Shown here in pieces: positions 12,640-46,264 of a DNA stretch of 51,588 nucleotides. The notes under the pieces were generated by a model, which was not told the origin of the DNA, did not search any database, and saw nothing but the letters and a program-made list of their open reading frames with translations. The stretch comes from Meiothermus sp. Pnk-1 (lineage in GTDB: Bacteria; Deinococcota; Deinococci; Deinococcales; Thermaceae), in NCBI RefSeq assembly GCF_003226535.1, contig NZ_QKOB01000014.1, positions 1 through 51,588 on the forward strand, in the 5' to 3' direction. Positions within the stretch are counted from its first letter, which is position 1, and every line of letters starts with the position of its first letter. The translations under genes and the position numbers were made by a program.

Positions 12640-13089
12640 TCAGGAAGACCCCTGCTGTCGGCGTTTGCGCTCCTCGGCCATCTGGAACAGGCGCTCTTTG
12701 GTGAAGACCCGCCGGCTCATGGCGTAGGCGAACACCGCCACCGCCCCGGCCTGCAACAGCCCACTCGCGGCCAGCACCAGGCGCAGGTCAGCATTGCCGG
12801 TGTAAAGCATCAGCGGCTCGAGCACCAGCCGCAGCAGCAACCCGGCGTTGAGCAGCACATAGGTCAGGCCCTCGAGGCCCTCCTGGCGGATCTGACCGGG
12901 ACGCGGCATCATCCAGTAGGCCACGCCCATCACCATCGAGAGGAAAAAGCCCACCAGCCCGGCGTGGACGTGGGTGGTCTTGAAGTAGCCCACCAACGCG
13001 GGCCAGATATAGAAGGCCGAGCCGGTGAGGGTGGTGTAGAGCAGGTAGAACAGGCTCGAGCGCACGAACAGGAATTGCCAGAACGACAC
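12640..13089 (-). CDS. Small haem-copper-oxidase-like membrane protein
   Basis: From a GTG at 13089 with GAGGAG upstream, the product is 149 aa with four membrane segments. The motif THVHAGLVGFFLSMVMGV with AYWMMPRPG right after it looks like a haem-copper oxidase/NorB-like or NnrS-like helix pair (H-x-H-x-G-x-x-G ... P). The protein is far too short to be a full oxidase subunit I, which has 12 helices. The frame is open upstream through the ferredoxin genes, but that extension is only their shadow. It is the last gene of a five-gene minus-strand unit with two ferredoxins and two DUF2249 proteins. A membrane redox partner in nitrogen-oxide metabolism is plausible. Confidence 0.75.
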   Translation of the reverse strand: MSFWQFLFVRSSLFYLLYTTLTGSAFYIWPALVGYFKTTHVHAGLVGFFLSMVMGVAYWMMPRPGQIRQEGLEGLTYVLLNAGLLLRLVLEPLMLYTGNADLRLVLAASGLLQAGAVAVFAYAMSRRVFTKERLFQMAEERKRRQQGSS

Positions 13090-13106
13090 GGGGAACTCCT
13101 CAGGGG

Positions 13107-13358
13107 TCAGGTTGTGGGCCGGCGAAAGTACTCCCGGTTGAGCCGGGCATACTCGGCCCAGGCTTCGGGGAGGTCTTCCTCGAGGAAGATGGCCCCGCTG
13201 GGGCAGACCTCCTGGCACAGGCCGCACTCGATGCAGCGGTCGGGGTCGATGTACATCTGCTCCTCGTGGTAATCGCCGCCGATGGCCTCCGCCGGGCAGA
13301 CCGCGTAGCAGGCCGCGCAGCGCTGGCTGCGGCAGGGTTCGGCGATCACGTAGGCCAC
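13107..13358 (-). CDS. 4Fe-4S ferredoxin (YfhL-like small ferredoxin)
   Basis: The 83-aa protein carries a first, variant cluster motif CRSQRCAACYAVCP and a canonical second motif CIECGLCQEVCP. The C-terminal helix LPEAWAEYARLNREYF is shared with its paralogue directly upstream. It probably carries two iron-sulfur clusters and acts as a soluble electron carrier. It sits 3 nt after the other ferredoxin and 17 nt before the small membrane protein gene, so it is likely co-translated with both. The tandem duplication is seen directly. Confidence 0.9.
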   Translation of the reverse strand: MAYVIAEPCRSQRCAACYAVCPAEAIGGDYHEEQMYIDPDRCIECGLCQEVCPSGAIFLEEDLPEAWAEYARLNREYFRRPTT

Positions 13359-13625: not shown

Positions 13626-14417
13626 TCAGCTCGCTTTCTCAATGAGCAACTCCACCCGGCCTGGCCCCAAATCGCGCAGCGCGTAGGGGTGGCCATCCTG
13701 CTCCAGCCGCGCCAGCAGGTGCACCGGGCGGCGCACGTGGTGCACCAGCAGGCGCTGGCCGGGCTCGAGGCGCGCCAACGCCTCCAGCACCCGCATCATG
13801 GGCAGGGGGGGCTCGAGGTTGGTCTCGATAGTGACCTCGGCGGCGTAGACCGCCCAGTCGGCTTCGCTCAGGGTTCGCGCCACGCGCTCCTCCGCCCCTG
13901 GTCCCAGGCGCAGGAAGTGCACCCGGTAGTGCTCAGGGCCCTCCTGTTCGCACCAAGCCTCGAAGCCCTTGCGCTCCATCACCCGGTACAGCGGCAGCGG
14001 CTCGAAAGGGACCTCCAGGCACAGGCGCTGGCCCGGGGCCACCTCGCGGGCGGCGGCCATGATGGCCCCGAAGGGCTCGCCCCCGGCGGCCAGGATGGGC
14101 CGCACGTCGAGGTGAAAGCCCACCGGAGCGGCCAGCCAGTCGGGTGGCGGGGTTCCCAATTTCGATTCGTTGCCCGCCGAAGCCTCCTCCGCTCTCGGCG
14201 TCTGGACGCCCAGCGCCCGGTTGAGCCGCTCAACGAGCACGGCAGGCTCGAGCCCCCCAATCCGCGCGGCCTGGGCCAGGGTGACCAGGCGGGGCATGGT
14301 GCGGCGCAGCAGGGGGTTTTTGAGCTTGGCGAAGGCCGGGCTGGCCTCGATGAGCACCTCCAGCAGCTCGGGGTGCTCGTCGAGCAGTTGGCTCACCCGC
14401 ATCTCGGGCCGGATCAC
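13626..14417 (-). CDS. DUF1858-like/DUF2249 double-domain protein
   Basis: The protein is 263 aa. The GTG start at 14417 is chosen because AAAAGGAGT lies just upstream. Residues ~5-75 resemble DUF1858 (MRVSQLLDEHPELLEVLIEA). Two DUF2249 units follow: one around FHLDVRPILAAGGEPFGAIM ... LCLEVPFEPLPLYRVMERKG, and one around LPMMRVLEALARLEPGQRLLV with HHVRRPVHLLARLEQDG. DUF2249 proteins are sulfur-carrier (TusA)-like in fold and are common near denitrification genes, often with hemerythrin domains. The function is unknown. It is the second gene of the minus-strand unit. Confidence 0.85.
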   Translation of the reverse strand: MIRPEMRVSQLLDEHPELLEVLIEASPAFAKLKNPLLRRTMPRLVTLAQAARIGGLEPAVLVERLNRALGVQTPRAEEASAGNESKLGTPPPDWLAAPVGFHLDVRPILAAGGEPFGAIMAAAREVAPGQRLCLEVPFEPLPLYRVMERKGFEAWCEQEGPEHYRVHFLRLGPGAEERVARTLSEADWAVYAAEVTIETNLEPPLPMMRVLEALARLEPGQRLLVHHVRRPVHLLARLEQDGHPYALRDLGPGRVELLIEKAS

Positions 14418-14419
14418 CG

Positions 14420-14644
14420 CTACTCCTTTTTGCCGATCCTCACCCGCCAGACCTCGGGGCCTTGCTCGAGGTATTCCCAGGCGAAGCGCCCGCTGCGCTC
14501 GGCGCTGAACTGGTAGTACAGCGGCTTGGGGTCGTGGTCGTTGACGAGCTCGAAGGCCTGGCCGGGCTCGAGGCTGTCGAAGAGGTGGAAGATGGTGGGG
14601 TGGCGCTCACGGGGGGCGATGGTGCGGACGTCCAGGGTTTTCAT
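14420..14644 (-). CDS. Single-domain DUF2249 protein
   Basis: From ATG 14644, with GGAGGCAAGC upstream, the product is 74 aa: MKTLDVRTIAPRERHPTIFH, then LFDSLEPGQAFELVNDHDPK and a C-terminal WRVRIGKKE. This is a complete DUF2249 domain with the conserved LEPGQ...NDHDPKPL core. The frame is open further upstream, but there is no ribosome binding site there. It is the first gene of the five-gene unit and ends 3 nt before the next start. The DNR-type box at 14694-14707 lies about 56 nt upstream. Confidence 0.88.
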   Translation of the reverse strand: MKTLDVRTIAPRERHPTIFHLFDSLEPGQAFELVNDHDPKPLYYQFSAERSGRFAWEYLEQGPEVWRVRIGKKE

Positions 14645-14693
14645 GCTTGCCTCCTTCACGCCCCCACTCTGGCCCAAGCCCCACCCCCGCGCG

Positions 14694-14707
14694 ATGACTT
14701 GAGTCAA
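14694..14707 (-). promoter_or_regulatory. FNR/DNR-type box before the DUF2249-ferredoxin unit
   Basis: On the minus strand the sequence reads TTGAC-TCAA-GTCAT, the best palindrome of the three boxes in this cluster. The centre is 56.5 nt before the ATG at 14644. A class II position would place the start of transcription near 14659, leaving a short leader that holds the ribosome binding site. Confidence 0.6.
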
Positions 14708-14847: not shown

Positions 14848-15990
14848 CTAGTGGCCGCCGGAGTTGGTCACGGGGGTCTGGGCGTGGAAGATGCTGGGGT
14901 CTTCCTTGCCCTCGACCACCAAGTACCCCACCAGGCCGCGGGCCGCGCGGGAGAGGGCGTGGTCGACGAGCATGTACTTGCCGGGGTAGTCGAGCTTCAT
15001 CTCCACGATGGAGGCGCTGCCGGGGCCGGTGATAGCACTCTGGGTGCCGGTGAGGGGGCTGCTGAAGGAGGCCTGGTTGTAGACGGTGTCGAAGACCTCG
15101 CCGATGACGTGGAAGGTGGAGATCACGTTGGGGCCGCCGACGCCGAAGAAGAGCCGGACTGTCTCGCCCACCTTAGCCTTCAAGGGGTAATCCTCGGTGA
15201 GGGCGGTGGTGGAACCGTTGAAGACGAAGTACTCGGGGCGCTCGTCGAGGAGCTTGCGGATATCGAAGCTCTGGCGGCCGGGGGTGTTGTAGGGGGCGGC
15301 TGTGTACATCTCACCCTGCATCACGTAGAACTCGCGGTCCACCTTGGGCAGCCCGCCCTCGGGCTCGACCAGGATCAGGCCGTATTGCCCGTTGGCGATG
15401 TGCTGGGCGGCCAGGGGGGTGGCGCAGTGGTAGACGAAGAGGCCGGGGGCCAGCGCCTTGAAGCTGAAGACCTTGGTCTCGCCGGGGGCCGCCTGCGTCA
15501 CCGCGCCGCCGCCGCCGGGGCCGGTGGCCGAGTGGAAGTCCACGGAGTGGTACATGCTGTTCTTGGCGTTGTTGGTGAAACTCACCTCGACCGTGTCGCC
15601 CACCCGGACGCGGATGAAGGGGCCGGGCACCTTGCCACCGAAGGTGTAGTAGGTGTAGCTCACGCCGGGGGCTAGTTCGGCCTCGACCTCGAGCGCCTCG
15701 ATGCTGACCTTGACCAATCCAGGCGCGCGCTTGCCGATGGGGGCGGGGATGTCGGCCGGATCATGGGCGATCTTGGGCAGGTTGGCGGGGACGGGCTCGA
15801 GGGCGACGGGGGCCGCGGCCGCCGGGGCGGTGGTTTGGGCCTGGGCGGGCGCCGGGGCCTGCGCCGCGTTGCCGCCCTTGCCGGCCATGATCTGAACCGT
15901 GAGCAGGACTGCCGCCGAGGCCAGCGCCCCGAGGATGAGCATGAGGAGGAGGGGGGCGGCGTTGCGTTGGGTTTTTTTCGTCTCGATCAT
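14848..15990 (-). CDS. nirK: Copper-containing nitrite reductase NirK
   Basis: Reduces nitrite to nitric oxide. The 380-aa protein has an N-terminal membrane anchor (12-32), an Ala/Pro linker and two cupredoxin domains. Visible ligands are type 1 Cu His148, Cys189 and His197, and type 2 Cu His153, His188 and His344. Catalytic Asp151 (HSVDFH) and His294 (STFHVIG) are also present. The position normally held by the axial Met of type 1 Cu is Gln202 (HIANGQYG, codon CAA), as in stellacyanin-like sites. A good ribosome binding site (AAAGGAAATAAG) precedes the ATG. The gene is divergent from an NsrR-like regulator and ends in a strong hairpin. No NO reductase gene is visible nearby. Confidence 0.97.
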   Translation of the reverse strand: MIETKKTQRNAAPLLLMLILGALASAAVLLTVQIMAGKGGNAAQAPAPAQAQTTAPAAAAPVALEPVPANLPKIAHDPADIPAPIGKRAPGLVKVSIEALEVEAELAPGVSYTYYTFGGKVPGPFIRVRVGDTVEVSFTNNAKNSMYHSVDFHSATGPGGGGAVTQAAPGETKVFSFKALAPGLFVYHCATPLAAQHIANGQYGLILVEPEGGLPKVDREFYVMQGEMYTAAPYNTPGRQSFDIRKLLDERPEYFVFNGSTTALTEDYPLKAKVGETVRLFFGVGGPNVISTFHVIGEVFDTVYNQASFSSPLTGTQSAITGPGSASIVEMKLDYPGKYMLVDHALSRAARGLVGYLVVEGKEDPSIFHAQTPVTNSGGH

Positions 15991-16116: not shown

Positions 16117-16527
16117 ATGAGAGCCTTACGCACCCTGTTAAAACGTGAAGAAAGCTACGGCGTGCACGCCCTGATGAGCGCCGCCGAGAGCCCCGGAATC
16201 CCCGCCACCGAGATCGCCCAGCGGCTGCAAGCCCCGCCTGCCTTCTTGGCGAAGGTGCTCGCCAAGCTCGCCAAGGCCGGGCTGATCGAGAACCGCCCCG
16301 GGCGCGGGGGGGGCGTGTGGCTCAAGGCCGACCCCAAGAGCATCTCGCTGCTCAGCGTCATCGAGGCGCTGTCCGGGCCGGTGGTGATGGACACCTGCCA
16401 GACCAAGCCCCGCTGCGCCACCGAGCAGCGGCGGGGCTTCTGCTACCTCAAGCCGGTGTGGAACGAGAGCAGCCGCAAGGTGCGCGAGGTGCTCGGCAGC
16501 TACACCCTCGACCAGATGATGGCTTGA
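16117..16527 (+). CDS. Rrf2-family regulator, NsrR-like
   Basis: The 136-aa protein has the Rrf2 winged helix (ATEIAQRLQAPPAFLAKVLA, then GLIENRPGRGGGVWL with the wing). Three cysteines, Cys94, Cys100 and Cys109 (C-x5-C-x8-C), match the iron-sulfur ligands of NsrR/IscR-type sensors. NsrR senses nitric oxide through its cluster and represses NO-response genes. Divergent placement from nirK supports that role. The ribosome binding site AAGGAGGG lies before the ATG. The spacing C-x8-C is one residue longer than I recall for classical NsrR (x7), so "NsrR-like" is the safe name. Confidence 0.85.
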   Translation: MRALRTLLKREESYGVHALMSAAESPGIPATEIAQRLQAPPAFLAKVLAKLAKAGLIENRPGRGGGVWLKADPKSISLLSVIEALSGPVVMDTCQTKPRCATEQRRGFCYLKPVWNESSRKVREVLGSYTLDQMMA

Positions 16528-16537: not shown

Positions 16538-16572
16538 GGCCCCTCGGCCCGTGCCGAACTAAGGTGGAAGCG

Positions 16573-17742
16573 ATGACCGGCCGGGCCCCCAGCCTCACCC
16601 CCACCCCCGCGGTGCCGCTCAGCCTGCCGCTGGGCTTCTTCGCGGCGGGGACGGCCTTCCTGCTGTGGGGCCTGCTGCTGCTGGCGATCCACCCCGAAGC
16701 CCTGCAGGCCGCCCGCCACCCGGTGCTGCTGGCCGCGAGCCACCTGCTGTTCTTGGGCTTTGGCGTGGGGGTGCTGGTGGGGGCCATGCATCCTCTGGTG
16801 CCGGTGGTGCTCGAGTCCCCCCTCCCCCGCCCCGCCCTGGGCTACCCCACGCTGGCCCTGTGGGGGGCGGGCCTGCCCTTGCAGGTGTGGGGCTTCCTCC
16901 AGGCCGAGCCCCGCTGGATCGCGCTGGGCGGCGGCCTGGTCCTGCTGGGCCTGCTGCTCTTCGCCTCTCACATGGCGCTGGCCTTCCGGCGGGCCTCGAG
17001 GTGGAGCCCCGTAGCCACCGCGCTGGCCTGGGTGAGCTTTTACTTGGTGCTCACCCCCCTGCTGGGAATGCTGCAAGCCCTCACCCTGCGAATGGGCTTC
17101 TACAACCCCGAGCGCCTGAGCTGGCATGTGCTGGCCGGGCTGGTGGGCGTGTTTGTGCTCTCCATCCTGGGCGTCGGGCACAAGCTGGTCTCGATGTTCA
17201 CCCTCAGCCACGGGGTGGATGAAAGCCTGCTGGGGCTGCTGCTGTGGCTGCTCAACCTGGGCCTGCTGGGCCTGGCCCTGAAGCAACCCATGGGGCTGGG
17301 CCTGCTGGCTGTGGGGGTCGGGCTGGCCTGCTACGACACCTTCCGCATCCTGCGCCACCGGGTGAAGCGGGCGCTGGACGTGGGGGTGCGGCACTACCTG
17401 GCCGGGCTGGCTTTCCTGGTGCTGGCGCTGCTGGCCCTGCTTGCTGGGCAGGCCCTGTGGGCCGGGTTGTGGTTTGGCCTGGGTTTTCTGACCCTGATCG
17501 TGAGCGGGATGCTCTACAAGATCGTGCCGTTCCTGGTCTGGACCTACCGCTATGCGCCCAGGGTGGGCCTGGAAACCGTGCCCGCGCTCAAGGCCATGCT
17601 CCCCGAGCAGGCCGCGGGCTGGGCGGGAATGCTGCTGGGTCTGGGAGCCTTGCTCGCTCCTTTCTGGCCACCCGCCTTCTGGCTGTGCCTGGCCGGGGGC
17701 CTGCTGTGCGCCTACGCCCTCGAGGAGGTGCTCCGCTCATGA
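16573..17742 (+). CDS. NnrS-like / haem-copper-oxidase-like 12-TM protein
   Basis: From the ATG at 16573 (GTG 16564 is possible but fits the promoter geometry less well) the product is 389 aa with about 12 hydrophobic helices. Repeated His-containing helices, [20 protein letters not shown] and [20 protein letters not shown], resemble the H-x-x-x-G-F...G...P pattern of NnrS and of oxidase subunit I-like proteins. NnrS is a haem-copper membrane protein of the nitric oxide stress response. The next gene overlaps by 4 nt (ATGA). It is also related in motif style to the small 149-aa membrane protein in this cluster. The family name is inferred from the motif pattern. Confidence 0.7.
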
Positions 17743-31487: not shown

Positions 31488-32912
31488 GTGGCCGAGATCC
31501 AGCTGACCATCACCCCCGTAGACGGCAGCGTGTATGTGGAGCGCCCCCTGGCCACACCAGCAGAGGTCGAACGCCGCCTCGAGGTCGCAGTCCAAGCCCA
31601 GCGCCGCTGGCGCAGCGTCCCCTTGAGCGAACGGGCCGAAATCTGCAGCCGCATGGTGGAGTCCCTGACCCGCCGGGCCGACCACCTGGCCCTCGAGCTC
31701 ACCTGGCAGATGGGCCGCCCGGTGCGCTACACCCCTAAAGAGATCCTGGGGGGCTTTGCCGAGCGGGCTCGCTACATGATCGCCGCCGCTCATACCGCCC
31801 TAGCCGACCTACCCGCTGAGCCCAGAGAGGGCTTTGTGCGTTTTATCCGGCGGGAACCTTTGGGGGTGGTGCTGGTGCTGGCTCCCTGGAACTACCCTTA
31901 CCTGACCTCGGTCAACACGGTGATCCCCGCCATCATGGCCGGCAACAGCGTGGTGCTCAAACACTCCGCCCAGACCCCCCTGGTGGCCGAGCGCTACGCG
32001 GAGGCTTTTGCCGAGGCCGGCTTACCCGAGGGAGTGTTCCAGTACCTTCACCTGAGCCATCCGCAAGTAGCCCAGCTGATCGCCGATCCGCGCATCGCCT
32101 TCGTGGCTTTCACCGGATCGGTGGAAGGAGGTAGGGCTGTGCAACAAGCCGCCAGCCACCGCTTTATCGGGCTGGGCCTCGAGCTCGGCGGCAAGGACCC
32201 CGCTTACGTGCGGGCCGATGCCGACTTGAGCTTCAGCCTGGAAAACCTGGTGGACGGCGCCATGTTCAACTCTGGGCAAAGCTGCTGTGGGGTCAAGCGC
32301 ATCTATGTCCATCACAGCCGCTTCGAAGAGTTCGTGGAGGGCTTCGTAGCCCTCACCTTACAGTATCGCCTGGGCAATCCCCTCGAGCCCGAAACTACCT
32401 TAGGACCTCTGGTGCGCAGCAGCGCCGCTGAAGCTATCCGGGCGCAGGTAGCCGAAGCCGTGAGCCAGGGCGCCCAGGCCCTCATCGATCCTAGAAAATT
32501 CCCCGCCGACGCGCCGGGCACGCCTTATCTGGCTCCCCAGGTGCTAATCCGGGTGAACCACCGTATGCGGATTATGCGCGAGGAGACCTTCGGCCCCGTA
32601 GTCGGGATCATGCCGGTACAGGGGGACCAGGAAGCCCTAAAGCTGATGAACGACTCTCCTTACGGGCTCACTGCCTCGATCTGGAGCCGAGACCTCGAGG
32701 CTGCGCTGCGCCTGGGGGAGCAGCTCGAGACCGGAACCTGCTTCCAGAACCGCTGTGACTATCTGGATCCGGCTCTGGCCTGGACTGGGGTGAAGGATTC
32801 CGGAAAGGGATGCACCCTCTCGGTGGTCGGCTATGAGCAGCTAACCCGACCCAAGTCATTCCACATGCGTGCCCTTCGCTCTAAGTACCTCACGGAAGGC
32901 TTCTCCCCTTAG
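31488..32912 (+). CDS. Aldehyde dehydrogenase (NAD(P)+)
   Basis: The 474-aa ALDH superfamily enzyme has APWNYPYLTSVNTVIPAIMA (cofactor and oxyanion region), FTGSVEGGRAV, the general base motif LGLELGGKDPAYV and the nucleophile loop FNSGQSCCGVKRIYV with two adjacent Cys. EETFGPVVGI and the PYGLTASIWS end are also present. It starts with GTG at 31488, 4 nt after the SDR stop. It finishes the operon, converting an aldehyde from amine breakdown to the acid. Confidence 0.93.
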   Translation: MAEIQLTITPVDGSVYVERPLATPAEVERRLEVAVQAQRRWRSVPLSERAEICSRMVESLTRRADHLALELTWQMGRPVRYTPKEILGGFAERARYMIAAAHTALADLPAEPREGFVRFIRREPLGVVLVLAPWNYPYLTSVNTVIPAIMAGNSVVLKHSAQTPLVAERYAEAFAEAGLPEGVFQYLHLSHPQVAQLIADPRIAFVAFTGSVEGGRAVQQAASHRFIGLGLELGGKDPAYVRADADLSFSLENLVDGAMFNSGQSCCGVKRIYVHHSRFEEFVEGFVALTLQYRLGNPLEPETTLGPLVRSSAAEAIRAQVAEAVSQGAQALIDPRKFPADAPGTPYLAPQVLIRVNHRMRIMREETFGPVVGIMPVQGDQEALKLMNDSPYGLTASIWSRDLEAALRLGEQLETGTCFQNRCDYLDPALAWTGVKDSGKGCTLSVVGYEQLTRPKSFHMRALRSKYLTEGFSP

Positions 32913-32919
32913 TGTTGGA

Positions 32920-33180
32920 GACCCCCCCCTCGGATGAAACACGGTTACTCAAGCTGGTGGGCATTACCTCTGAGGAGTGAGTCAGAGATATCGCGGGCAA
33001 ATACTGGCCCCCCACCTTGGGCGGAGACGTAACGGCGCGGCTCAATACTATTCCTGCGGCTATGGTAGCCCACCAGCTAGGTACGCCGCTGGTGGTGATG
33101 CCCATCAACTACCGCGACGACGCCAACCATCACCCCCCTGGTCTGCAAAGGCAAGGCTGATCTGGTACTCTTTCCCGAGA
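32920..33180 (+). pseudogene. Decayed gene C-terminal remnant, unknown family
   Basis: One frame reads PPSDETRLLKLVGITSEE, then an in-frame TGA (32978-32980), then VRDIAGKYWPPTLGGDVTAR and LNTIPAAMVAHQLGTPLVVM, PINYRDDAN. Near 33125 a frameshift leads to PLVCKGKADLVLFPEIR and a stop at about 33180. The protein-like character (no clusters of stops, sensible composition) suggests a real ancestral gene of ~85+ codons lacking its 5' part. I do not recognise the family. Confidence 0.45.
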
Positions 33181-33196
33181 TAAGGACGTGTGTGGA

Positions 33197-33706
33197 ATGG
33201 CCTTGGAAGGTGGGGTAAAAGCTCGAGTGGTCATCGTGATGGGGGTTTCAGGATCGGGCAAGACCACCCTGGGGAGAGCCCTCGCCCAGCGCTTGGGCTG
33301 GGATTTTGCTGATGCCGACGATTATCACTCCCAGGGCAACCGGGACAAAATGCGTCGGGGTGAGCCGCTCAACGATGCCGATCGCGAGCCTTGGCTGCTC
33401 CGCTTACGGGCCCTAATCGAGGAGCATCTGGCTAAGGGCAAGCCGCTGGTACTGGCCTGCTCGGCCTTAAAAGAACGCTACCGGGCCATACTGAGCGAGG
33501 GCTTGGAAAGCGTTCGGTTTGTCTTTCTACACGGGGATCCTCACCTAATCGCTGTACGGATGCAGCAACGGGAGCACTTTATGCCGGTGAATCTGCTAAA
33601 AAGCCAGCTGGAAACCCTCGAGCCCCCTCGAGAAGCTATCTGGATCGACGTCAGAGATCCGCTTCCGGCGAGCGTACGAAAAGTGCTTCAGGAACTCCAC
33701 CGATAG
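33197..33706 (+). CDS. gntK: Gluconokinase
   Basis: Phosphorylates gluconate to 6-phosphogluconate. The ~169-aa protein has the P-loop MGVSGSGKTTLGRALAQRLG, DADDYHSQGNRDKMRRGEPL (substrate site) and ACSALKERYR, all typical of the GntK family. The start at ATG 33197 is chosen for AAGGA 10 nt upstream; GTG 33188 is possible. It is followed by a polyol dehydrogenase, suggesting a short route for gluconate/idonate. Confidence 0.92.
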   Translation: MALEGGVKARVVIVMGVSGSGKTTLGRALAQRLGWDFADADDYHSQGNRDKMRRGEPLNDADREPWLLRLRALIEEHLAKGKPLVLACSALKERYRAILSEGLESVRFVFLHGDPHLIAVRMQQREHFMPVNLLKSQLETLEPPREAIWIDVRDPLPASVRKVLQELHR

Positions 33707-33727
33707 CCATGACGAGCGAGGAGAAGC

Positions 33728-34759
33728 ATGCGGGCTTTGTTCTTAGACCGACCGGGAGTTATGCGGCTGGGAGAGTTTCAGGAAACCCAGCCCGTTGAAG
33801 GGCGCTTACGGCTGCGGGTGCAGGCAGTGAGCGTGTGCGGATCCGACATTCACTACTACAAAGAAGGGCGCATCGGCAGCGCTATAGCAGAGGAACCCTT
33901 TGTGCTAGGGCATGAGTTCTCCGCCGTGGTAGACGATCCTGATGGAGAACGTTGGGGGCTACCCCCTAGCACGCTGGTGGCGGTAGACCCCGCTGAGCCT
34001 TGTGGCGAATGCGAGTGGTGCTCGCAAGGCTATGCCAACTTGTGTCCACACGTGCGCTTCGCTGGCTCGGCACCGGTAGCCGGAGCCTTGCGGGAATACT
34101 ACTATGCCAAGCCAAGTTCGCTATTCCCTCTCCCGGAGGGTTTCGATGCTACGGCGGCAGCCCTGCTCGAGCCCCTCGGGGTGGCTATTCACGGGGTAGA
34201 TTTGGCCAAAATTCGCCTGGGCGATACAGTAGCGGTGGTGGGAGCGGGAGCGATTGGCCTATACCTGCTCCAGGTAGCCCGGCTCGCTGGCGCCTTCAAA
34301 GTCCTGGCGCTAGAGCCGCTAGCCTATCGCCGCGAGCTGGCCTTGCGGCTTGGAGCCGATGCCGCGTACGTACAACCCGAAGCGCTGCTTGAAGCCACCG
34401 CCGGACGGGGAGCCGATGTGGTGCTGGAGGCTACGGATAGCCCAGAAGGCCCCGAAACCGCCTGCGCGGTGGCCCGTATCGGCGGAACGGTGGTACTGGT
34501 AGGAATTCCTGACGGAGACCGCTTTACCCTTACTGCTTCCATGGTGCGCCGCAAGGGCCTAACCCTCAAGCTCTCCCGCCGCATGGGACACGTGTACCCC
34601 CGGGCTATCCAGATGGTGGCTTCGCAAAAGGTTAACCTAAAAGCCGTCGCTACCCATCACTTTCCTCTCGAGCAAGGAGCGCAGGCCTTCGCTCTGCAAG
34701 CCCACCGCACCGAGGGCGTAATCAAGACGGTCATCCACATTGATCCGGCAAGCCGCTAA
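33728..34759 (+). CDS. Zinc-dependent sorbitol/L-idonate-type dehydrogenase
   Basis: The 343-aa MDR enzyme has VCGSDIHYYKEGRIG (catalytic Zn Cys), LGHEFSAVV (His-Glu), structural zinc Cys in EPCGECEWCSQGYANLC and a Rossmann VVGAGAIGLYLLQ. The sequence HYYKEGRIG is typical of L-idonate 5-dehydrogenase, sorbitol and xylitol dehydrogenases. With gluconokinase right before it (21-nt gap), an idonate or related sugar-acid/polyol route is likely. The gene converges with araA; the 169 bp between them show no clear terminator. Confidence 0.88.
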   Translation: MRALFLDRPGVMRLGEFQETQPVEGRLRLRVQAVSVCGSDIHYYKEGRIGSAIAEEPFVLGHEFSAVVDDPDGERWGLPPSTLVAVDPAEPCGECEWCSQGYANLCPHVRFAGSAPVAGALREYYYAKPSSLFPLPEGFDATAAALLEPLGVAIHGVDLAKIRLGDTVAVVGAGAIGLYLLQVARLAGAFKVLALEPLAYRRELALRLGADAAYVQPEALLEATAGRGADVVLEATDSPEGPETACAVARIGGTVVLVGIPDGDRFTLTASMVRRKGLTLKLSRRMGHVYPRAIQMVASQKVNLKAVATHHFPLEQGAQAFALQAHRTEGVIKTVIHIDPASR

Positions 34760-34928
34760 CGGGCTTTCCACGGCGGAGCACAACCACCAACAATAGGGGT
34801 AATGACGAAATCCGTAACTCAACCCACAAAGACTGGAATGCTGAGGCCAGGGCAAAGCGGCACCCAAAAGCGCTAATACCTGACCGCAACCCAATGTTCC
34901 AAACATCGAGTTGCCGGATATCAGACGC

Positions 34929-36437
34929 TCAACCCCGTAACCCCTGAGCCAATGTATAGTACAAATCGTTCTGCCGCAACTCGTTCTTGAAGCTCCGCAG
35001 GTCGGTGCTCGCGTCAATAACCGCCACCTCAATCCCCGCAATCTCGGCAAAATCCTCCATCATCTCGGCGGTGACAGCGTAGCTGTAGCCGGTATGGTGT
35101 GCTCCACCCGCATAAATCCAAGCGGCAATACCGGTTTTGAAATCGGGCTGGACTTCCCAAAGCGCACGGGCCACCGGCAGTTTAGGCAACGGGGGCAGCT
35201 CTACCGCCTTGACCTCATGAACAACCAGCCGAAAGCGGTTACCAAGATCTACTAGCGAGGCATTGATGGCTTTACCTGGAGGAGCGTCAAATATCAGGCG
35301 TACCGGGTCTTCTTTTCCTCCGATGCTTAAAGGATGAATCTCGAGCCTAGGCTTGTCTGCGGCAATACTGGGGCAGACCTCGAGCATATGCGCCCCCAGC
35401 ACCCGCTGCTGTCCTGGAACGAGGTGATAGGTGTAGTCCTCCATGAAGGAAGTCCCGCCCGGCAGGCCGTCGCCCATCACCTTCATAGCCCGCACCAGGG
35501 CAGCGGTTTTCCAGTCGCCCTCTCCGCCAAAGCCATATCCGTCAGCCATCAAGCGCTGGATGGGCAGTCCGGGAAGCTGCCGGAGACCGTGCAGGTCCTG
35601 AAAAGTGTCGGTGAAGCCTTTGAAGCCGCCTTCTTCCAAAAACGATCTCAAACCCAGCTCGAGGCGGGCTCCGTAGCGCAAGGCGTCGTGTCGTGACCCG
35701 CCCTTTTTTAGCTCTCCAGCAACGCTGTACTGCTCTTGGTACTCCTCTACAAGATCGTCAATCGCCGACTCTGAGACCGCCTTCACCCGCTCTACCAGAT
35801 CGCCCACTCCATAGCCGTTGACCGAAAAGCCAAAGCGCATCTCCGCTGCCACCTTGTCACCCTCAGTAACCGCCACCTCGCGCATGTTGTCACCGAAACG
35901 AGCAAACTTGGCTCCTTGCAGATCGTGCCAAGCATGGGCCGCTCGAGCCCACACACCAAGCCGCTCCTGCACCTCGGGATCGGCGTAGTGCCCCACTACC
36001 ACCTTGCGTCCCAAACGCATACGGGTGTGTAAGAACCCCACTTCGCGATCTCCATGGGCAGCTTGGTTAAGGTTCATAAAATCCATGTCGATGGTCTGCC
36101 AGGGCAAGTCGCGGTTAGCCTGGGTATGCAGATGCACAAAAGGCTTGCTCAATACCGACAATCCACGAATCCACATCTTGGCAGGAGAAAAGGTATGCAT
36201 CCACAAGATCAGCCCCGCGCAACGAGGTTCAGCATTGGCCTCCTGGGCCAGCCGATAGATCTCCTCCGGCGTAGTGAGGAGGGCTTTGAACTTTACCTCG
36301 AGCGGGATCTGCCTCGAGGTGTTCAAAGCTTGCGCAATCTCTCGAGCATTGGTCTCCACTTGCCGCAAAAGCCCTTCCCCGTAAAGATGCTGCGAACCGC
36401 AAATAAACCAAAGCTCCGGCTTGGATAAATGAACCAT
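34929..36437 (-). CDS. araA: L-arabinose isomerase
   Basis: Converts L-arabinose to L-ribulose. The 502-aa protein has the family start [20 protein letters not shown], the [15 protein letters not shown] motif and [20 protein letters not shown] (the GEGDWK metal/substrate region). VEVCP-like (MLEVCPSIA) and [14 protein letters not shown] follow. Expected Mn2+ ligands (Glu in GEGDW and [10 protein letters not shown], and two His) are present. It lies downstream of araB in the same direction, 28 nt apart. Confidence 0.96.
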
Positions 36438-36465
36438 AGCTACTTGACTCTCCTCTGCTTTGTCT

Positions 36466-38106
36466 TCAAGCCCTTACCTGCTGCGACAAACGTTTGAGCC
36501 GCCGCATAACATCGTTGCCACCGCGCCCGAAGTAGTCATGCAAGGTCACGTATTCCGCATAAAGCTGGTCATAAATGATCTGGTGCTCGGCTATGGGCAT
36601 ATAAACGTTTTTGCGTAGTTTGCCCATCCGTCTAGCCGCAGCTCGGATATCGGGATACACCCCCGCCGCCACCGCTGCATGCATCGCACTGCCCAGAGCC
36701 GGGCCCTGCTCGCTGCCTATAACACTGATCGGCATGCCTAACACATCGGCGTAAATCTGCATCAACATGCGATTTTTGGGCAACCCTCCCGCCGCCACAT
36801 ACTCCTCAACAGCGACCCCGTGTTGCCGGAAGGTCTCGATAATCAAGCGCGTTCCGTAAGCAGTGGCTTCAATCAGTGCCCGGTAGATATCGGGGGGACG
36901 GGTGGCCAAGGTCAACCCTAGGATCATCCCGCTGAGCGACGCGTCCACCAACACACTGCGGTTACCGTTGACCCAATCTAGCGCCAGGAGACCGTGCTCA
37001 CCAGGTTTTTGCTGCGCAGCTTCCCGTTCAAGGCGTTCGTGAACGCTCACATCGGCAGAAGCATACTCTGGGGGAAGCGCATGTTTGATAAACCAAGCAA
37101 AGATGTCCCCTACCCCACTCTGCCCGGCTTCATAGCCGTAGAGGCCGGGGATGATCCCACCTTCTACCACCCCGCACATCCCCGGTACCTCGCGCAGGGA
37201 ATCGCTCATCACCATATGGCAGGTACTTGTGCCCATGATGGCCACCATCCGCCCCGGTTCTACCACCCCCGCCGCCGGCACGGTCACATGGGCGTCCACG
37301 TTGGCCACCGCTACCGCGATACCCGGCCTGAGACCGGTCCAAGCCGCGGCTTCCTCGGTCAGCTCTCCGGCTTTACTCCCGAGAGGGGATAGCTCCCTAC
37401 CCAAGCGGGTTTCTACCAAATCGGCAAATTCGGGGTTTAGGGCGGCCAAGTATTCCCTCGAAGGGTAATGTCCATCTTGATAAATGGCTTTATATCCGGC
37501 GGTACAGGTATTGCGCGTTTCCCGCCCACATAGGCGCCATACCACCCAGTCTGCTGCCTCTATGATCCGCTCGGCACGAGCATATACCTCCGGAGCTTCC
37601 TCTAAGAGCTGCAAGCTTTTGGCCAACAGCCATTCGCTAGAAATCTTGCCGCCGTAGCGAGGTAACCAAGCCTCGCCGCGCTCCGCTGCCAAAGCGTTGA
37701 TACGGTCAGCCTGAGGCTGCGCAGCGTGATGCTTCCATAGCTTGACATACGCGTGAGGTTCATCAGCAAACTCCGACAACAAGCACAACGGGGTGCCATC
37801 GGAAAGGGTGGGCAAAATGGTACAGGCAGTGAAATCTATACCAATACCCACTACCCGGCTGGGATCTATCCCACTTTTCTTTAGGGCTTCCGGCACCGCC
37901 TGCTTGAAGACCAAAAGGTAATCTTCAGGATGCTGTAAGGCCCACTCTGGAGGCAAAGGTTTGCCGCTAGGCAACGCGGTGTCCATTACCCCGTGCGGAT
38001 AGACACATACCGCACTAGCCAACTCTAATCCATCGGAAACCCGCACCACTACCGCTCTCCCCGACTCGGTGCCAAAATCCACGCCTACCGTATACCGCTC
38101 ACTCAT
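36466..38106 (-). CDS. araB: L-ribulokinase
   Basis: Phosphorylates L-ribulose. The 546-aa FGGY-family kinase begins [20 protein letters not shown] and carries [20 protein letters not shown], the [11 protein letters not shown] region and the C-terminal [20 protein letters not shown]. The ATG overlaps the LacI-type regulator stop by 8 nt, so the operon order is lacI-araB-araA. Length is normal for AraB. Confidence 0.95.
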
Positions 38107-39160
38107 TCGTTTTCTCCCGTTTGGATGAGAAGATCTTTTGCCTTCCTGCCTTGATCCCCGCCGTACTGGCCCGCACCACCAGTTTTGGTTGAATGAGGCG
38201 AGGGGCTTTAGCCTCAGCTGGAGCTTCGATGAGGGTGAGCAATTGGGCCAAACTGCTCTGCCCTAAGCTGGGGAAATCTTGGTAAACGGTAGTAAGGGGC
38301 GGATCAAAAAACTCCGATTCAGGGATGTTATCAAACCCCACCACCGAGACCTCCCCCGGCACCCTCAACCCAGCCTCCCGCAAAGCCCGCAAAGCTCCCA
38401 AGGCCATTTGGTCATTGGCCACCAACAAGCCGGTAAAGGGCTGTTTTGTCTCAAGCAGGGCCCGTGCGGCAGCGTAACCACTTCGAGCGCTCCAGTCTCC
38501 AAAGGCCTGGGATACTGGCCTTAACCCCGCCTCGAGGAGAGCTTCCTTCCAGCCTTGGTGGCGTTGGCGAGCATTATTCCACTGCTGAGGGCCGCCGATT
38601 AAAGCTAAGCGACGGTGGCCTAATTGTAGTAGATGCTCCACCCCCAACCGTGCCCCGTGTAGCTGGTCAATGCCGCTAGTCGGTAGCCCTGCCGAAGGAT
38701 CAGCGTCTACTAATACGATCGGTACGGTGAACTCACGTAGAAACCCGGTTTCGGCCTCCAGTAGGGGAGCGATGATTAAGATACCATCCACCCGCTGGCG
38801 CCGCAGGGCGTTGACCGCCAATCCTAATTCCCTCCGGCTCAAAGCGGGGATGCTGCTAATGCTTACGTGATAACCGCGCATCTGGGCAGCCTGCTCGATG
38901 TTGTAGAGCATCTGGGTGGGGCCAAACTCAGGCGAGCCAAAGCTTACTACCCCGATCAGGTTGCTGCGCCGGGTCGCTAAGCTACGGGCCACGCTCGAGG
39001 GCTGGTATTTAAGCCGACGGATGGCGTCCTTAACCCGCTGCCGAGTGTCTTCCCGCACCGAAGGGTGGTTGTTAATGACCCTCGAAACTGTTTGATAAGA
39101 AACTCCTGCCGCTCGAGCTACGTCTTTGATAGTGGCGGGTTTCTGGTCAGGGTCTATCAT
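38099..39160 (-). CDS. LacI/GalR-family regulator of arabinose genes
   Basis: The 353-aa protein has an N-terminal helix-turn-helix KDVARAAGVSYQTVSRVINN. Its recognition-helix residues Tyr22, Gln23 and Arg27 are identical to E. coli LacI (YQTVSRV). The hinge KYQPSSVARSLATRRS and a periplasmic-binding-protein-like sugar domain follow. The two lac-like operators at 39483-39507 and 40436-40460 fit this code. The ATG is preceded by TAAGAT exactly 6 nt away, so the mRNA is probably leaderless. It likely represses the ara genes in the absence of arabinose (effector inferred). Confidence 0.93.
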   Translation of the reverse strand: MIDPDQKPATIKDVARAAGVSYQTVSRVINNHPSVREDTRQRVKDAIRRLKYQPSSVARSLATRRSNLIGVVSFGSPEFGPTQMLYNIEQAAQMRGYHVSISSIPALSRRELGLAVNALRRQRVDGILIIAPLLEAETGFLREFTVPIVLVDADPSAGLPTSGIDQLHGARLGVEHLLQLGHRRLALIGGPQQWNNARQRHQGWKEALLEAGLRPVSQAFGDWSARSGYAAARALLETKQPFTGLLVANDQMALGALRALREAGLRVPGEVSVVGFDNIPESEFFDPPLTTVYQDFPSLGQSSLAQLLTLIEAPAEAKAPRLIQPKLVVRASTAGIKAGRQKIFSSKREKTNE

Positions 39161-39166
39161 AAAAGC

Positions 39167-39172
39167 ATCTTA
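39167..39172 (-). promoter_or_regulatory. Leaderless -10 element of the lacI-araBA operon
   Basis: TAAGAT on the minus strand ends 6 nt before the ATG at 39160 with no ribosome binding site between. It matches the layout at the GntR gene and araD. Confidence 0.55.
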
Positions 39173-39482
39173 TTCTTATGAACCCCGCAGTAGCTACGAT
39201 CCCTTTAGTAGCTTTCCGCTGGAACAGCAAGTTGGCAACTCTGACCACACCGACACGGTTTAGGGACAAAAACGCCAAAGGGTATCCAAAGCTTGTCGGC
39301 GGCATCGCCAAGTTCCTTGGGTATCTGACCAAAACGAACTTATTGGGCAACGGCCATCCCTCCCAAGGATATTCTCAACGCTAAAGTGATTGACCAACAC
39401 GCATTTTTCTCCCATGGTATCTAGCACCTCCAAGGCCTTAAACGCCGTCTAGCACATCGTCTACTTCGGCAATCCCAGAAGC
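39173..39482. other. Gene-free stretch upstream of the LacI-type gene
   Basis: Both strands carry short open frames (plus 39178-39384, minus 39147-39350) but no recognisable protein, start signal or codon bias. It lies between the operator at 39483 and the regulator's leaderless promoter, and may be a remnant of an inserted or deleted element. I see nothing that can be named. The remaining 140 nt up to the araD stop (39508-39649) likewise hold no gene. Confidence 0.4.
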
Positions 39483-39507
39483 TTTGTGATCGCTCACATG
39501 TTAACAT
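39483..39507 (-). promoter_or_regulatory. lac-like operator O1
   Basis: The core TGTGATCGCTCACA (39485-39498) is a 5+4+5 inverted repeat with a central CG, close to the symmetric lac operator. The flanks extend the match so that 23 of 25 positions are identical, in inverted orientation, to the operator at 40436-40460. It lies 325 nt upstream of the LacI-type gene. Confidence 0.75.
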
Positions 39508-39649
39508 CCTCGGAGAGAAGGGTCAAGTCAAGCCAAACATCCAGGTACCCGCCCAACAATTGGGGCTCCCACAACAGGGGTTTTATAGCCCATCCATCCG
39601 TGTGTAATGGGCACGAGGCGATTAAGGAGCGTTGATACAGCCTTGGGTT

Positions 39650-40354
39650 TCACGGGTTATTTTGTCCGTAGTAGGCGTCGGGGCCATGCTTACGGCGATA
39701 GTGCTTCTGGAGCAAAGCTGGAGGGATCTCGCTCAGATCAGGGTTGAGTAAGCGGGCATACAGCGCCATCCGGGCAACCTCCTCGAGTACTACCGCGTTA
39801 TGTACTGCTTCCTTCGCATCCTTACCCCATACAAAAGAAGCATGGTTACGCAGTAGCACCGCAGGTACGTCACAGGGATTAATTCCCCTACGGCGAAATT
39901 CCTCAACAATCACCTGCCCGCTATGGTACTCATAGCTTTGGCGGATCTCCTCAGGCGTAAGGTCACGGGTACAAGGAATAGTATGGCCGAAGTAATCGGC
40001 CTGGGTGGTGCCGTAGCAGGGCAAGTCCAGGCCAGCTTGTGCCCAAGCTGTGGCATAAGGCGAATGTGTATGGACAATTCCTCCTACCCCGAACTCCCGA
40101 GCCAGCACCAGATGCGTAGGGGTGTCGGAAGAGGGTCGCAAATCGCCCTCGACCACCCTACCACTGCTCACTTCTACTACCACCATACTTTCTATGCGCA
40201 AATCCTCGTAGGCTACGCCACTGGGCTTGATGGCTAAAAGGCCAGTCGTAGGATCATAGGCCGAAGCATTGCCCCAGGTAAACACCACCAGCCCGTACCG
40301 GGGCAGAGCCAGATTTGCTTCCAGGGCTCGTTCGCGTAATTCTTTGGCCACCAT
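39650..40354 (-). CDS. araD: L-ribulose-5-phosphate 4-epimerase
   Basis: Converts L-ribulose 5-phosphate to D-xylulose 5-phosphate, completing the pathway. The 234-aa class II aldolase/epimerase has FTWGNASAYDP, IKPSGVAYEDL, the zinc site GIVHTHSPYATAWAQ with His pair, FGHTIPCTRDL and LLRNHASFVWG with the third His. It is separated from araBA by the regulator gene and 489 bp. It starts at ATG 40354 with a leaderless TAGACT -10 element at 40361-40366, and has its own operator region upstream, shared with the ABC transporter. Confidence 0.94.
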   Translation of the reverse strand: MVAKELRERALEANLALPRYGLVVFTWGNASAYDPTTGLLAIKPSGVAYEDLRIESMVVVEVSSGRVVEGDLRPSSDTPTHLVLAREFGVGGIVHTHSPYATAWAQAGLDLPCYGTTQADYFGHTIPCTRDLTPEEIRQSYEYHSGQVIVEEFRRRGINPCDVPAVLLRNHASFVWGKDAKEAVHNAVVLEEVARMALYARLLNPDLSEIPPALLQKHYRRKHGPDAYYGQNNP

Positions 40355-40360
40355 GCCGTA

Positions 40361-40366
40361 AGTCTA
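40361..40366 (-). promoter_or_regulatory. Leaderless -10 element of araD
   Basis: TAGACT on the minus strand ends exactly 6 nt before the araD ATG. A weak -35, TTACCG, lies 17 nt further upstream (40384-40389). Confidence 0.55.
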
Positions 40367-40435
40367 CGCCACCATAGCAATCCCGGTAAAGCTCCAAGTA
40401 CCTTAACCCGCCCGTCTTGACTATTTTTGGGGCTA

Positions 40436-40469
40436 ATGTTAGGATGTGAGCGATCACAAAATTTGTGAT
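40436..40469 (+). promoter_or_regulatory. lac-like operator O2 with an overlapping second palindrome
   Basis: The core TGTGAGCGATCACA (40445-40458) is the reverse complement of the O1 core. It overlaps a perfect 8+1+8 palindrome ATCACAAA-A-TTTGTGAT (40453-40469). The pair sits in the divergent region between araD and the sugar-binding protein gene, about 85-100 nt upstream of araD. It could control both directions. The remainder up to 40681 holds only the GAGGAGG ribosome binding site at 40669-ish; no other clear promoter was identified. Confidence 0.7.
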
Positions 40470-40681
40470 GAAAAACTCGAGTAAGCGAGAAGGTTAAGCT
40501 TTAAAACCACATACACGCCCCTTATAGGAGCGTCGTGAAATTCTCGCTGCTAGAAACTCACAGGGAAGGAGGAGGATAATCAAAAAATCATCGGTTAATA
40601 GCTCAAAGATGACCAGCTCTGCCAAGCTTACCCACAAAATTTCGACTAAGGTGAAAAACTGGGCTCGAGGAGGTTAAGTCA

Positions 40682-41743
40682 ATGAAACGTCTGCTCTTAA
40701 ACATCTTTTTTGCCAGCGTGGCTCTGTCTTTGCTAGGGGTGGCTAATGCACAAAATAAAGGCTTGGTCGGCATATCCATGCCAACCAAGTCTTCTGCCCG
40801 ATGGATATCCGACGGGAACAACCTCGTCAAGTACCTCAAAGATAAGGGCTATACCACCGATCTTCAATATGCCGAAGATGACATTCCCAACCAGATTGCG
40901 CAAATCGAGGCCATGATTGCCAAGAAACCCAAAGTACTAGTAATCGCTCCCATAGATGGCACAACCCTTACCGATATACTCAAGAAGGCGCATGACGCAA
41001 ACATAAAGATTATCGCCTACGACCGACTCATCAGAAATAGTCCCTACGTAGATTACTATGTAACCTTCGACAATTTTAAAGTTGGTGTCCTGCAAGCGCA
41101 GTCCATCGTGGACAAATTGGGTCTAAAAGCAGGCAAAGGTCCCTTCAACATTGAACTGTTTGGGGGTTCCCCCGACGATAATAACGCCTACTTCTTCTAT
41201 AACGGCGCTATGAGCATACTAGAGCCGTACATCAAAAGCGGCAAGCTGGTGGTTCGCAGTAAACAGATGGGCATGGATAAAGTGGGTACGCTGCGCTGGG
41301 ATGGAGCAACGGCCCAAGCCCGCATGGATAACCTCCTATCGGCCTACTACACTACAGAAAAGGTGGACGCGGTGTTAAGCCCTTATGACGGCTTGAGCAT
41401 CGGTATTCTCTCTTCTTTAAAAGGGGTGGGCTACTGTACTCCTAAACAACCTTGTCCCGTCGTCACTGGTCAAGATGCGGAAATACCTTCAGTAAAATCC
41501 ATTTTGCGTGGTGAGCAGTATTCGACTATTTTCAAAGATACGCGTGAACTGGCCAAGGCCACAGCCGACATGATTGACGCGATAATGAGCGGCAAACCAC
41601 CCAAAGTCAATGACACCAAAACCTACAACAACGGTGTAAAAGTCGTGCCATCTTACCTGCTCGAGCCAGTACTGGTGACTGCTTCTAACTGGAAGCAAGT
41701 ACTCATAGACAGCGGCTACTACACCGAAGCGCAACTCAAATAA
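40682..41743 (+). CDS. Sugar ABC transporter binding protein (ChvE/XylF-like)
   Basis: The 353-aa periplasmic-binding protein has a signal peptide ending VANAQ (about 1-21), then the sugar-binding fold: [40 protein letters not shown], the [19 protein letters not shown] ligand loop and a GKPPKVND C-terminal region. It is the multiple-monosaccharide (ChvE) type that binds L-arabinose, xylose and others. The neighbourhood (ara genes) points to L-arabinose. Its AT-richer base use differs from the rest of the window. The ATPase gene follows after a hairpin at 41762-41787. Confidence 0.92.
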
Positions 41744-41761
41744 ACGAAGCTATAACTCCCT

Positions 41762-41787
41762 CCCTGGTGGCTTAGACGCCACCAGGG
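41762..41787 (+). terminator. Attenuating hairpin between binding protein and ATPase genes
   Basis: A perfect 9-bp stem CCCTGGTGG/CCACCAGGG with an 8-nt loop lies 18 nt after the binding-protein stop and is followed by GTTTG. It probably reduces read-through or protects the 5' message, giving excess binding protein. Confidence 0.55.
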
Positions 41788-41804
41788 GTTTGCCAGGAGG
41801 TAGT

Positions 41805-43370
41805 GTGGAACAAGAACCCATTCTATCCATGCGCAACATTAGTAAAAGCTTCCCTGGGGTCAAAGCCTTGGATAACGTCAATTTGACAGTTTATCCCGGT
41901 GAAATTCACGCCATAGTGGGAGAAAACGGGGCGGGGAAATCTACCCTCATGAAGGTGCTAAGCGGCGTATATCCGCATGGCCAATACGAGGGAGAGATCT
42001 ATTTCGAGGGCAAATTACAGCGCTTTGAAAACATTCGAGACAGCGAGGCCCAAGGAATCATCATCATCCACCAAGAACTCGCCCTGGTTCCCATGCTTTC
42101 GATTGCAGAAAACATTTTTCTGGGCAACGAGCCGGCGAAGGCCGGGGTGATCGATTGGCACGCTGCTCATAGCCGTGCACAAGAACTCTTAGACCGAGTC
42201 GGATTAAGAGAATCTCCCTCCGCCATTGTAGGTAAGCTAGGAGTAGGGAAACAACAACTAGTGGAGATCGCCAAAGCATTGGCCAAACGGGTAAGGTTGT
42301 TGATTCTCGATGAACCTACGGCAAGCCTTAACGAAACCGATAGCGAAGCGTTACTCCAACTCTTATTGGATCTAAAAGCTCAGGGCATCGCTTGTATTCT
42401 TATCTCACATAAGCTCAACGAGGTCACACAAATAGCCGATCGAATTACCATACTTCGTGACGGCACAACGATCGAGACCCTAAACTGCGCCGAGGAGTTG
42501 GTCAGCGAAGACCGCATCATTCGAGGCATGGTAGGAAGGGACATGCAACATCGTTACCCACAACGTCACCCACAGATCGGAGAGGTGATATTCGAGGTGC
42601 GCGATTGGCGTGTGTACCACGAACAATATACCGACCGCGAAGTTATTAAAGGGGTGAGTTTTTATGTGCGTAGAGGGGAAATTGTAGGAATTGCGGGGCT
42701 AATGGGCTCAGGGCGCACAGAATTAGCTATGAGCCTATTTGGTCGTGCTTATGGCAGGCGCGTGAGTGGTCGGATTTTTATTGACGGGAAGGAGGTGGAC
42801 GCCTCAACCATCGGCAGGGCTATTCGCTGTGGCTTAGCTTACGTCACCGAGGATCGCAAGGGTTGGGGGTTGATCCTGGAACAGGAAATCCGCAAAAACG
42901 TAACCTTGGCCAACCTACCTAAGGTTGCTCAGCGGGGGGTTATTGACGAGAATGCCGAAGCCAAGGTGACGCAGAGATTTCGTGAAGCTTTACGTATACG
43001 CTGCTCGAGCATCGAGCAACCTGTGGTGAACCTCTCGGGCGGTAATCAGCAAAAGGTACTGCTTAGCAAGTGGCTATTTACCCAACCGCGCTTGCTGATC
43101 TTGGACGAACCCACCCGAGGCATTGACGTTGGCGCCAAATACGATATCTACACCCTCATGGACGAGCTAGCATCGGAAGGTAAAGGCATTCTGCTAATCT
43201 CTTCCGAGATGCCTGAGTTGCTTGGTATGTGTGACCGTATCTATGTGATGAGCGAAGGACAGCTCGTAGCCGAATTGCCCAGAAGCGAGGCCAGCCAAGA
43301 ACGCATTATGCGCGCCATCGTCAACGCTGTTCAAGCCCAAACATCATACAACAGAGAAATCCACCTATGA
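41805..43370 (+). CDS. Sugar ABC transporter ATP-binding protein (MmsA/GguA type)
   Basis: A double ATPase of about 521 aa from GTG 41805 (AGGAGG just upstream; TTG 41790 is also possible). The first half has P-loop GENGAGKST and DEPTASLN. The second has the degenerate P-loop GLMGSGRTE typical of these proteins and [15 protein letters not shown] with DEPTRGID. This is the usual RbsA/XylG/GguA architecture. The gene overlaps the permease start by 4 nt. Confidence 0.94.
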
Positions 43371-44521: not shown

Positions 44522-44601
44522 CCCCGCTTGGTAAAGAGTTTCTTCGACAAGGAGGCACCGGCTCGCTCGCCGCACCATGAAGCACTTCTTGTAAAGCGCT
44601 A

Positions 44602-44630
44602 AGCCTGGGTGACTTTCCCCAACCCGGGCT
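44602..44630. terminator. Hairpin between the converging sugar permease and cas6 genes
   Basis: AGCCTGGGT (44602-44610) pairs with ACCCGGGCT (44622-44630) through one G-T wobble, with an 11-nt loop. It lies between two converging transcription units and may stop both. No strong T-run is seen on either strand. Confidence 0.35.
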
Positions 44631-44673
44631 GACTGCTTCAGGACGGTAAAAGCCCCTTTCAGCATCGGAAGCT

Positions 44674-46256: not shown

Positions 46257-46264
46257 GGCCGCTC

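Follow-up and report, generated by a model that had tools for sequence, protein, structure and literature searches.

Meiothermus sp. Pnk-1 encodes a two-domain copper nitrite reductase (NirK) with glutamine in the axial place of the type 1 copper site, where most NirK sampled carry methionine, and a comparison of relatives suggests that bacteria have made this exchange on several occasions. We consider it probable that the gene is best explained jointly by a two-domain copper NirK with an axial Gln202, a cytochrome c donor and a Met-type ancestor of proteobacterial kind. An axial Gln in NirK is already known from Thermus scotoductus SA-01 (TsNirK), from whose type the Pnk-1 enzyme differs. The window in what follows is the whole stretch of DNA that was analysed, 51,588 nucleotides in length.

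The nirK gene of Meiothermus sp. Pnk-1

The gene is an ORF at 14848-15990 on the minus strand with an ATG start and encodes 380 amino acids. Its product passes the NCBIfam profile for copper-containing nitrite reductase (TIGR02376; score 312.2 bits, threshold 296.3) and nearly all of its best 60 phmmer matches in the PDB are copper nitrite reductases, the best with an E-value of 2.8e-121. An AlphaFold2 model built from 23 sequences has a mean pLDDT of 87.6 and in this predicted model the two-cupredoxin core fold is present, with a Z score of 48.7 and an rmsd of 0.6 over 298 residues against 6the. The last strand of the model finishes at residue 360 and the protein stops at residue 380, leaving it without a third cupredoxin domain, and a fused donor domain was not found in the protein sequence. 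At the N-terminus a hydrophobic helix (residues 12-36; 15883..15957, minus strand) is predicted at low-to-middling confidence, with a hydropathy peak from residue 10, and is followed by a linker rich in Ala, Pro and Gln. Because of this predicted helix the protein is likely to have a membrane anchor.

Axial glutamine and the remaining copper ligands

The axial loop of the Pnk-1 enzyme reads VYHCATPLAAQHIANGQYGLILVEP. Gln202 is encoded by CAA (15385..15387, minus strand; TTG on the plus strand) and its column holds Met in 6tfd, 2dv6, 6the and 1kbv, with the loop aligned by phmmer without a gap. With the exception of the usual axial Met the NirK ligand set is complete. The type 1 copper ligands His148 (15547..15549), Cys189 and His197 (15400..15402), the type 2 copper ligands His153 (15532..15534), His188 and His344 (14959..14961) and the catalytic His294 (15109..15111) are invariant in an alignment of 23 rows, in which the catalytic Asp151 (15538..15540) is nearly so; all lie on the minus strand, and the adjoining His188 and Cys189 form the Cys-His bridge (15424..15429). 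In known NirK the equivalent of His344 serves the neighbouring subunit, as given for TsNirK in the accessible text of its report (PMC6400189). The initial annotation had proposed that Gln202 replaces the expected axial Met in an otherwise intact set of copper ligands and catalytic residues (Asp and His), and both the codon and the gapless alignment to structurally known NirK bear this out.

Comparison at the sequence level confirms that the axial Gln is real and correctly read. A sequencing slip is unlikely because the NirK of Calidithermus chliarophilus also has Gln from a different codon, CAG, and because Met to Gln requires at least two base changes, three in the case of CAA. That another Met might be the true axial ligand is very improbable. 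The candidate for this role would be Met146, which sits two residues ahead of the type 1 ligand His148, but Met is also aligned at 146 in 44 of the 89 rows that have an axial Met, both Mets are present in 6the and 6tfd too, and we rejected it as a substitute since the same residue is common in enzymes of the Met type. The remaining Mets of the core (224, 228, 331 and 340) fall outside both type 1 ligand loops, and in the TsNirK crystal the homologous Gln130 is a ligand of the type 1 copper, according to the portion of the report available (PMC6400189).

Comparison with known systems

TsNirK (PDB 6hbe), published in 2019, was presented as the first NirK whose core type 1 copper is coordinated by Gln, and the text available describes a blue, active enzyme whose apparent turnover is 65 per second (PMC6400189). 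It resembles the Pnk-1 enzyme in the axial Gln of the homologous loop, in the two-domain core and in coming from the same bacterial family, and at the type 1 site the two probably function alike. They differ in that TsNirK shows Ser where the catalytic Asp is expected and carries a fused C-terminal cupredoxin domain, whereas the Pnk-1 enzyme keeps Asp151 and ends after the core; because of these two features the Pnk-1 protein is, judged by its sequence, not a member of the TsNirK group. Copies of the TsNirK type were found in six genomes of one genus of the family and are 34-36% identical to the Pnk-1 protein. One of them (L007; 33% identity to Pnk-1 in a separate comparison) is near-identical to TsNirK, with 1009 bits to 6hbe and the motif MAHTMGGQFG, and for this reason we take the genus to be Thermus.

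Among enzymes of known structure the core of the four-domain NirK of Bradyrhizobium ORS 375 (6the) and the NirK of Hyphomicrobium denitrificans (2dv6, 6tfd) are 58-59% identical to the Pnk-1 protein, with which they share a near-identical predicted fold and the other ligands. They differ from it in having an axial Met and, according to their titles, extra fused domains, where the Pnk-1 enzyme has Gln and no such domains. Stellacyanin, a single-domain electron carrier and not a nitrite reductase, shares with the Pnk-1 enzyme a His2-Cys-Gln type 1 copper; identity of the Pnk-1 protein as a stellacyanin or phytocyanin is excluded by its two-domain NirK core with type 2 ligands. The stellacyanin comparison had been made when the sequence was initially annotated and it holds, with the available text of the TsNirK report drawing the same one for its own Gln site (PMC6400189). 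A description of an axial Gln in a NirK that retains the catalytic Asp was not found in the accessible text of six papers (PMC6400189, PMC5581439, PMC13324648, PMC5698706, PMC11881046, PMC10989939).

Distribution of axial glutamine

With a view to how common the Gln form is, genomes were searched around four loci bearing it, belonging by title to Alphaproteobacteria (L097; 289 genomes), Patescibacteria (L035; 379), Gammaproteobacteria (L043; 369) and Actinomycetota (L106; 296). The searches listed 88 loci, two of them giving the best 30 of 49 and the best 30 of 44 places, and after leaving out the four centre genomes, which had been chosen for their Gln, 84 NirK loci remained. Of the loci listed 76 have an axial Met, five Gln, two Leu and one Gly. 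Alphaproteobacteria account for 16 Met, one Leu and one Gly (n=18), Patescibacteria for four Met and four Gln (n=8) and Gammaproteobacteria for 27 Met, one Leu and one Gln (n=29), and all 29 loci of Actinomycetota have Met. The remaining ligands are intact in the loci with Leu (L168, L195) and Gly (L176). In Deinococcota a search of 111 genomes at E-values up to 1e-40 returned 18 places, nine with Met, seven with Gln and Asp, the Pnk-1 and Calidithermus copies included, and two with Gln and Ser.

A scan of 84,980 species with a DNA pattern for the Gln form returned 105 stretches, and apart from L069 and L089 all of them (103) are NirK-like. Going by their names, 42 stretches belong to Patescibacteria lineages and 26 to Pseudomonadota, 17 of the latter being Idiomarinaceae, and others belong to Actinomycetota (9), Deinococcota (6), Acidobacteriota (5), Gemmatimonadota (3) and Balneolota (3); Trueperaceae and Nitriliruptoraceae also appear in the scan. 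The figure of 105 is a lower bound because the pattern fixes the seven-residue loop, demands Tyr or Phe after the Gln and so misses the TsNirK forms. Many NirK of Patescibacteria have an axial Gln, often in the motif NSHGQYG. Outside Patescibacteria many carriers seem to stem from saline or soda-lake sources, as we presume for the Idiomarinaceae, the Nitriliruptoraceae and the MAGs of Trueperaceae, and a link to habitat is possible. A 2017 paper on nirK in CPR bacteria describes, in its accessible part, conserved type 1 and type 2 ligand sites (PMC5581439).

Origin of the Gln form

The only close relative found is the NirK of Calidithermus chliarophilus DSM 9957, at 94% identity, and TIGR02376 at an E-value of 1e-40 gave no match in a congeneric genome of Pnk-1. 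The 19 sampled rows next nearest to the Pnk-1 protein, with identities of 57.8-62.8% over the core, all have Met; they come from plasmids of Ciceribacter, Deinococcus sp. NW-56, D. ficus and Azospirillum and from further Alpha- and Gammaproteobacteria, and because of them the change from Met to Gln looks, on the aligned sequences, local. In a published tree, as far as the text available describes it, Calidithermus NirK is placed inside Proteobacteria and apart from Thermus NirK (PMC10989939), and none of the terms axial, ligand, Gln, glutamine, residue or copper turned up in a search of that text. The gene probably came by horizontal transfer from a Met-type enzyme of proteobacterial kind, with the exchange for Gln taking place in or before the lineage common to the Pnk-1 and Calidithermus copies. 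A phage origin was looked for with blastn and gave no match in the phage collection.

For the number of changes we collected 244 ORF hits as relatives, of which 208 plus Pnk-1 were kept after leaving out those with E-values above 1e-20 and identical copies. A quick tree with the axial residue masked was built from 108 rows, 107 of them clustered from 189 together with L002, and a careful search was made on 43 rows hand-picked from the larger set. The pair of Pnk-1 and Calidithermus falls in a clade of 19 Met, three Gln and one Leu in the 108-row tree (99, starred) and of 17 Met and three Gln in the 43-row tree (99/98, starred). The third Gln of that clade belongs to a protein of an alphaproteobacterial MAG (L097; 54.5% identity), which groups with the Met row L167 and not with Pnk-1. 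Two deep Gln clades are present in the 108-row tree, one of 12 rows, mostly Patescibacteria (99, starred), and one of nine rows from Balneolota, Acidobacteriota, Trueperaceae, Gemmatimonadota and Alkalilimnicola (98, starred).

Mapped as a label, Gln changes seven times on the 108 rows with at least seven changes forced by the starred branches, and six times on the 43 rows with at least five forced; the bootstrap trees give five or six changes and none gives one. On the quick tree a grouping of the Pnk-1 pair with L097 (p 0.142) or with two rows of the TsNirK type (p 0.179) survived the AU test, which rejected one with 13 Gln rows of the Patescibacteria type only weakly (p 0.035). Several changes of the label are therefore supported, and as the AU tests keep or only weakly reject such joint groupings we are unsure of their exact number and of the independence of any two origins. 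The direction would be from Met to Gln, as the Gln rows appear nested.

Type 1 potential and electron donor

The Pnk-1 enzyme would be a two-domain protein that converts nitrite to nitric oxide (NO) and is probably tethered to the membrane on its outer side. The side-chain oxygen of Gln202 would bind the type 1 copper as Gln130 of TsNirK does, and electrons donated by a c-type cytochrome would enter at the type 1 copper and reach the type 2 copper by way of the bridging pair Cys189 and His188. Less certain, though plausible by analogy, is a stellacyanin-like lowering of the type 1 potential by Gln202. It would hamper electron uptake from the donor and ease their passage on to the type 2 copper, and it would suit a donor of lower potential.

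Published values bear on this in both directions. In the text available the M148Q variant of rusticyanin has 563 mV against 667 mV (PMC11881046), a table entry for azurin M121Q reads as a decrease in potential (PMC5698706) and Met144Leu in AxNiR raises the potential by 96 mV (PMC13324648). Type 1 potentials of NirK lie at about 240-266 mV in the accessible text of two sources (PMC13324648, PMC11881046), and at 265 mV cucumber stellacyanin with its Gln is not below the Met enzyme AcNIR at 240 mV in the portion seen of one of them (PMC11881046). A potential for a natural Gln NirK was not found in the accessible parts of the literature consulted.

A search of the Pnk-1 genome with the cupredoxin family PF00127 gave no matches, with a positive control in Thermus composti, and PF00034 matched at 12 places. 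Taking cupredoxins as the PF00127 family the donor is therefore likely to be a c-type cytochrome, and of the haem donor in a thermophile that the initial annotation had put forward the haem donor is plausible on these counts. In Deinococcus sp. NW-56 a sulfocyanin-like gene adjoins nirK, an observation that counts against a reading of the donor as cytochrome only. Where the core ligand set of a row is complete, a haem motif beyond the core occurs in none of 100 Gln rows and eight of 89 Met rows, an N-terminal cupredoxin-like motif in none and 11 and a C-terminal one in five and ten, these being crude motif counts that ignore kinship and include some rows cut by contig ends.

Genomic neighbourhood of nirK

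Divergent from nirK lies a gene for an Rrf2-family regulator (16117..16527, plus strand; PF02082), 99% identical to its counterpart adjacent to nirK in Calidithermus, and an Rrf2 gene also adjoins nirK in Deinococcus ficus; the regulator is a possible Fe-S or NO sensor. It is followed by a gene for a 392-aa multi-pass membrane protein (16564..17742, plus strand), with no Pfam or NCBIfam match and 88% identical to a protein encoded beside nirK in Calidithermus, which is possibly linked to the handling of NO or nitrite. On the other side are genes for a DUF2249 protein (14420..14707, minus strand; PF10006), a DUF1858-DUF2249 protein (13626..14417, minus strand; PF08984, PF10006) and a membrane protein of 155 aa that matches COX1 weakly (12640-13107; E 0.0068) next to two FdxA-like ferredoxins, and a SufT-like protein is also encoded near nirK.

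When 14 Pnk-1 proteins were compared with a 17-kb stretch of Calidithermus chliarophilus nine matched, nirK counted, with identities of 87-99% and a conserved gene order. In Calidithermus the DUF2249 gene is separated from nirK by three additional genes that are absent from Pnk-1 and that appear from their translations to be dihydrolipoamide-dehydrogenase-like, hydrolase-like and TetR-like (L251, 8206-11085). The five outer Pnk-1 proteins (metallo-beta-lactamase-like, Crp, cupin, YwiC and a 218-aa protein) have no match in this 17-kb stretch.

A search of the Pnk-1 genome with PF00115 (COX1), which presumably also picks up NorB, found three genes whose best NCBIfam match is cytochrome c oxidase subunit I, with 667.1, 663.1 (cut-off 670.75) and 100.7 bits. 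An NO reductase is likely to be absent from the genome, since these genes match oxidase models and no NO reductase model is among their best NCBIfam matches. Two matches to cytochrome cd1 fell below the cut-off, and with neither a cd1 nitrite reductase nor an NO reductase recognised by profile searches of the genome we rejected a full denitrification cluster in Pnk-1.

Elsewhere in the window the G+C content falls to 0.49 against about 0.65 across 33728-44521, a region with what by reading appear to be arabinose-use and sugar-transport genes and which was perhaps acquired. A row of genes at 44674-51191, named from their translations alone, may be a type I CRISPR-Cas set, and a CRISPR-like repeat array was searched for in 32900-44700 and not found.

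Discussion

Heat adaptation, or adaptation to a donor of low potential particular to thermophiles, would fit the presence of the axial Gln in two distant NirK types of the same family, those of Pnk-1 and TsNirK. We regard this reading as improbable. By name 42 of the 105 pattern stretches are from Patescibacteria and 17 from Idiomarinaceae, groups that we take not to be thermophiles, and because most carriers belong to them the thermophile part of the initial annotation is unsupported; on the habitats so assumed the genome scan also rejects the idea that Gln is unique to thermophiles. Alternatively the residue may be near-neutral, with the fold setting the type 1 potential, Gln being tolerated and its recurrence reflecting mutational access, for example via Leu. 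Leu (CTG) is indeed a single base away from both Met (ATG) and Gln (CAG), and so an intermediate, and was found with an otherwise intact ligand set in L168 and L195, and the potentials of cucumber stellacyanin and AcNIR given above are close. Against this Gln has been retained across two deep clades, and through a synonymous codon change between Pnk-1 and Calidithermus, and we hold near-neutrality to be possible though doubtful.

It is tentatively conceivable, at a confidence we would call low, that the axial Gln is a second convergent type 1 state in otherwise canonical NirK of the Asp type, gained from Met repeatedly across unrelated phyla and kept as an adaptation to low-potential donors such as c-type cytochromes in cells without a cupredoxin. 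Gln in any case probably represents a recurrent and stable alternative ligand of NirK and not a one-off. The axial ligand is a main handle on the potential of type 1 copper, and natural pairs of Met and Gln enzymes, about 60% identical and with the same other ligands, would allow the effect of the swap to be asked in a working enzyme and not in engineered azurin or rusticyanin. Checks of NirK motifs that require an axial Met would discard real candidates, notably in Patescibacteria, and the profile TIGR02376 accepts the Pnk-1 protein. The wider recurrence of the Gln is the more interesting part of the finding.
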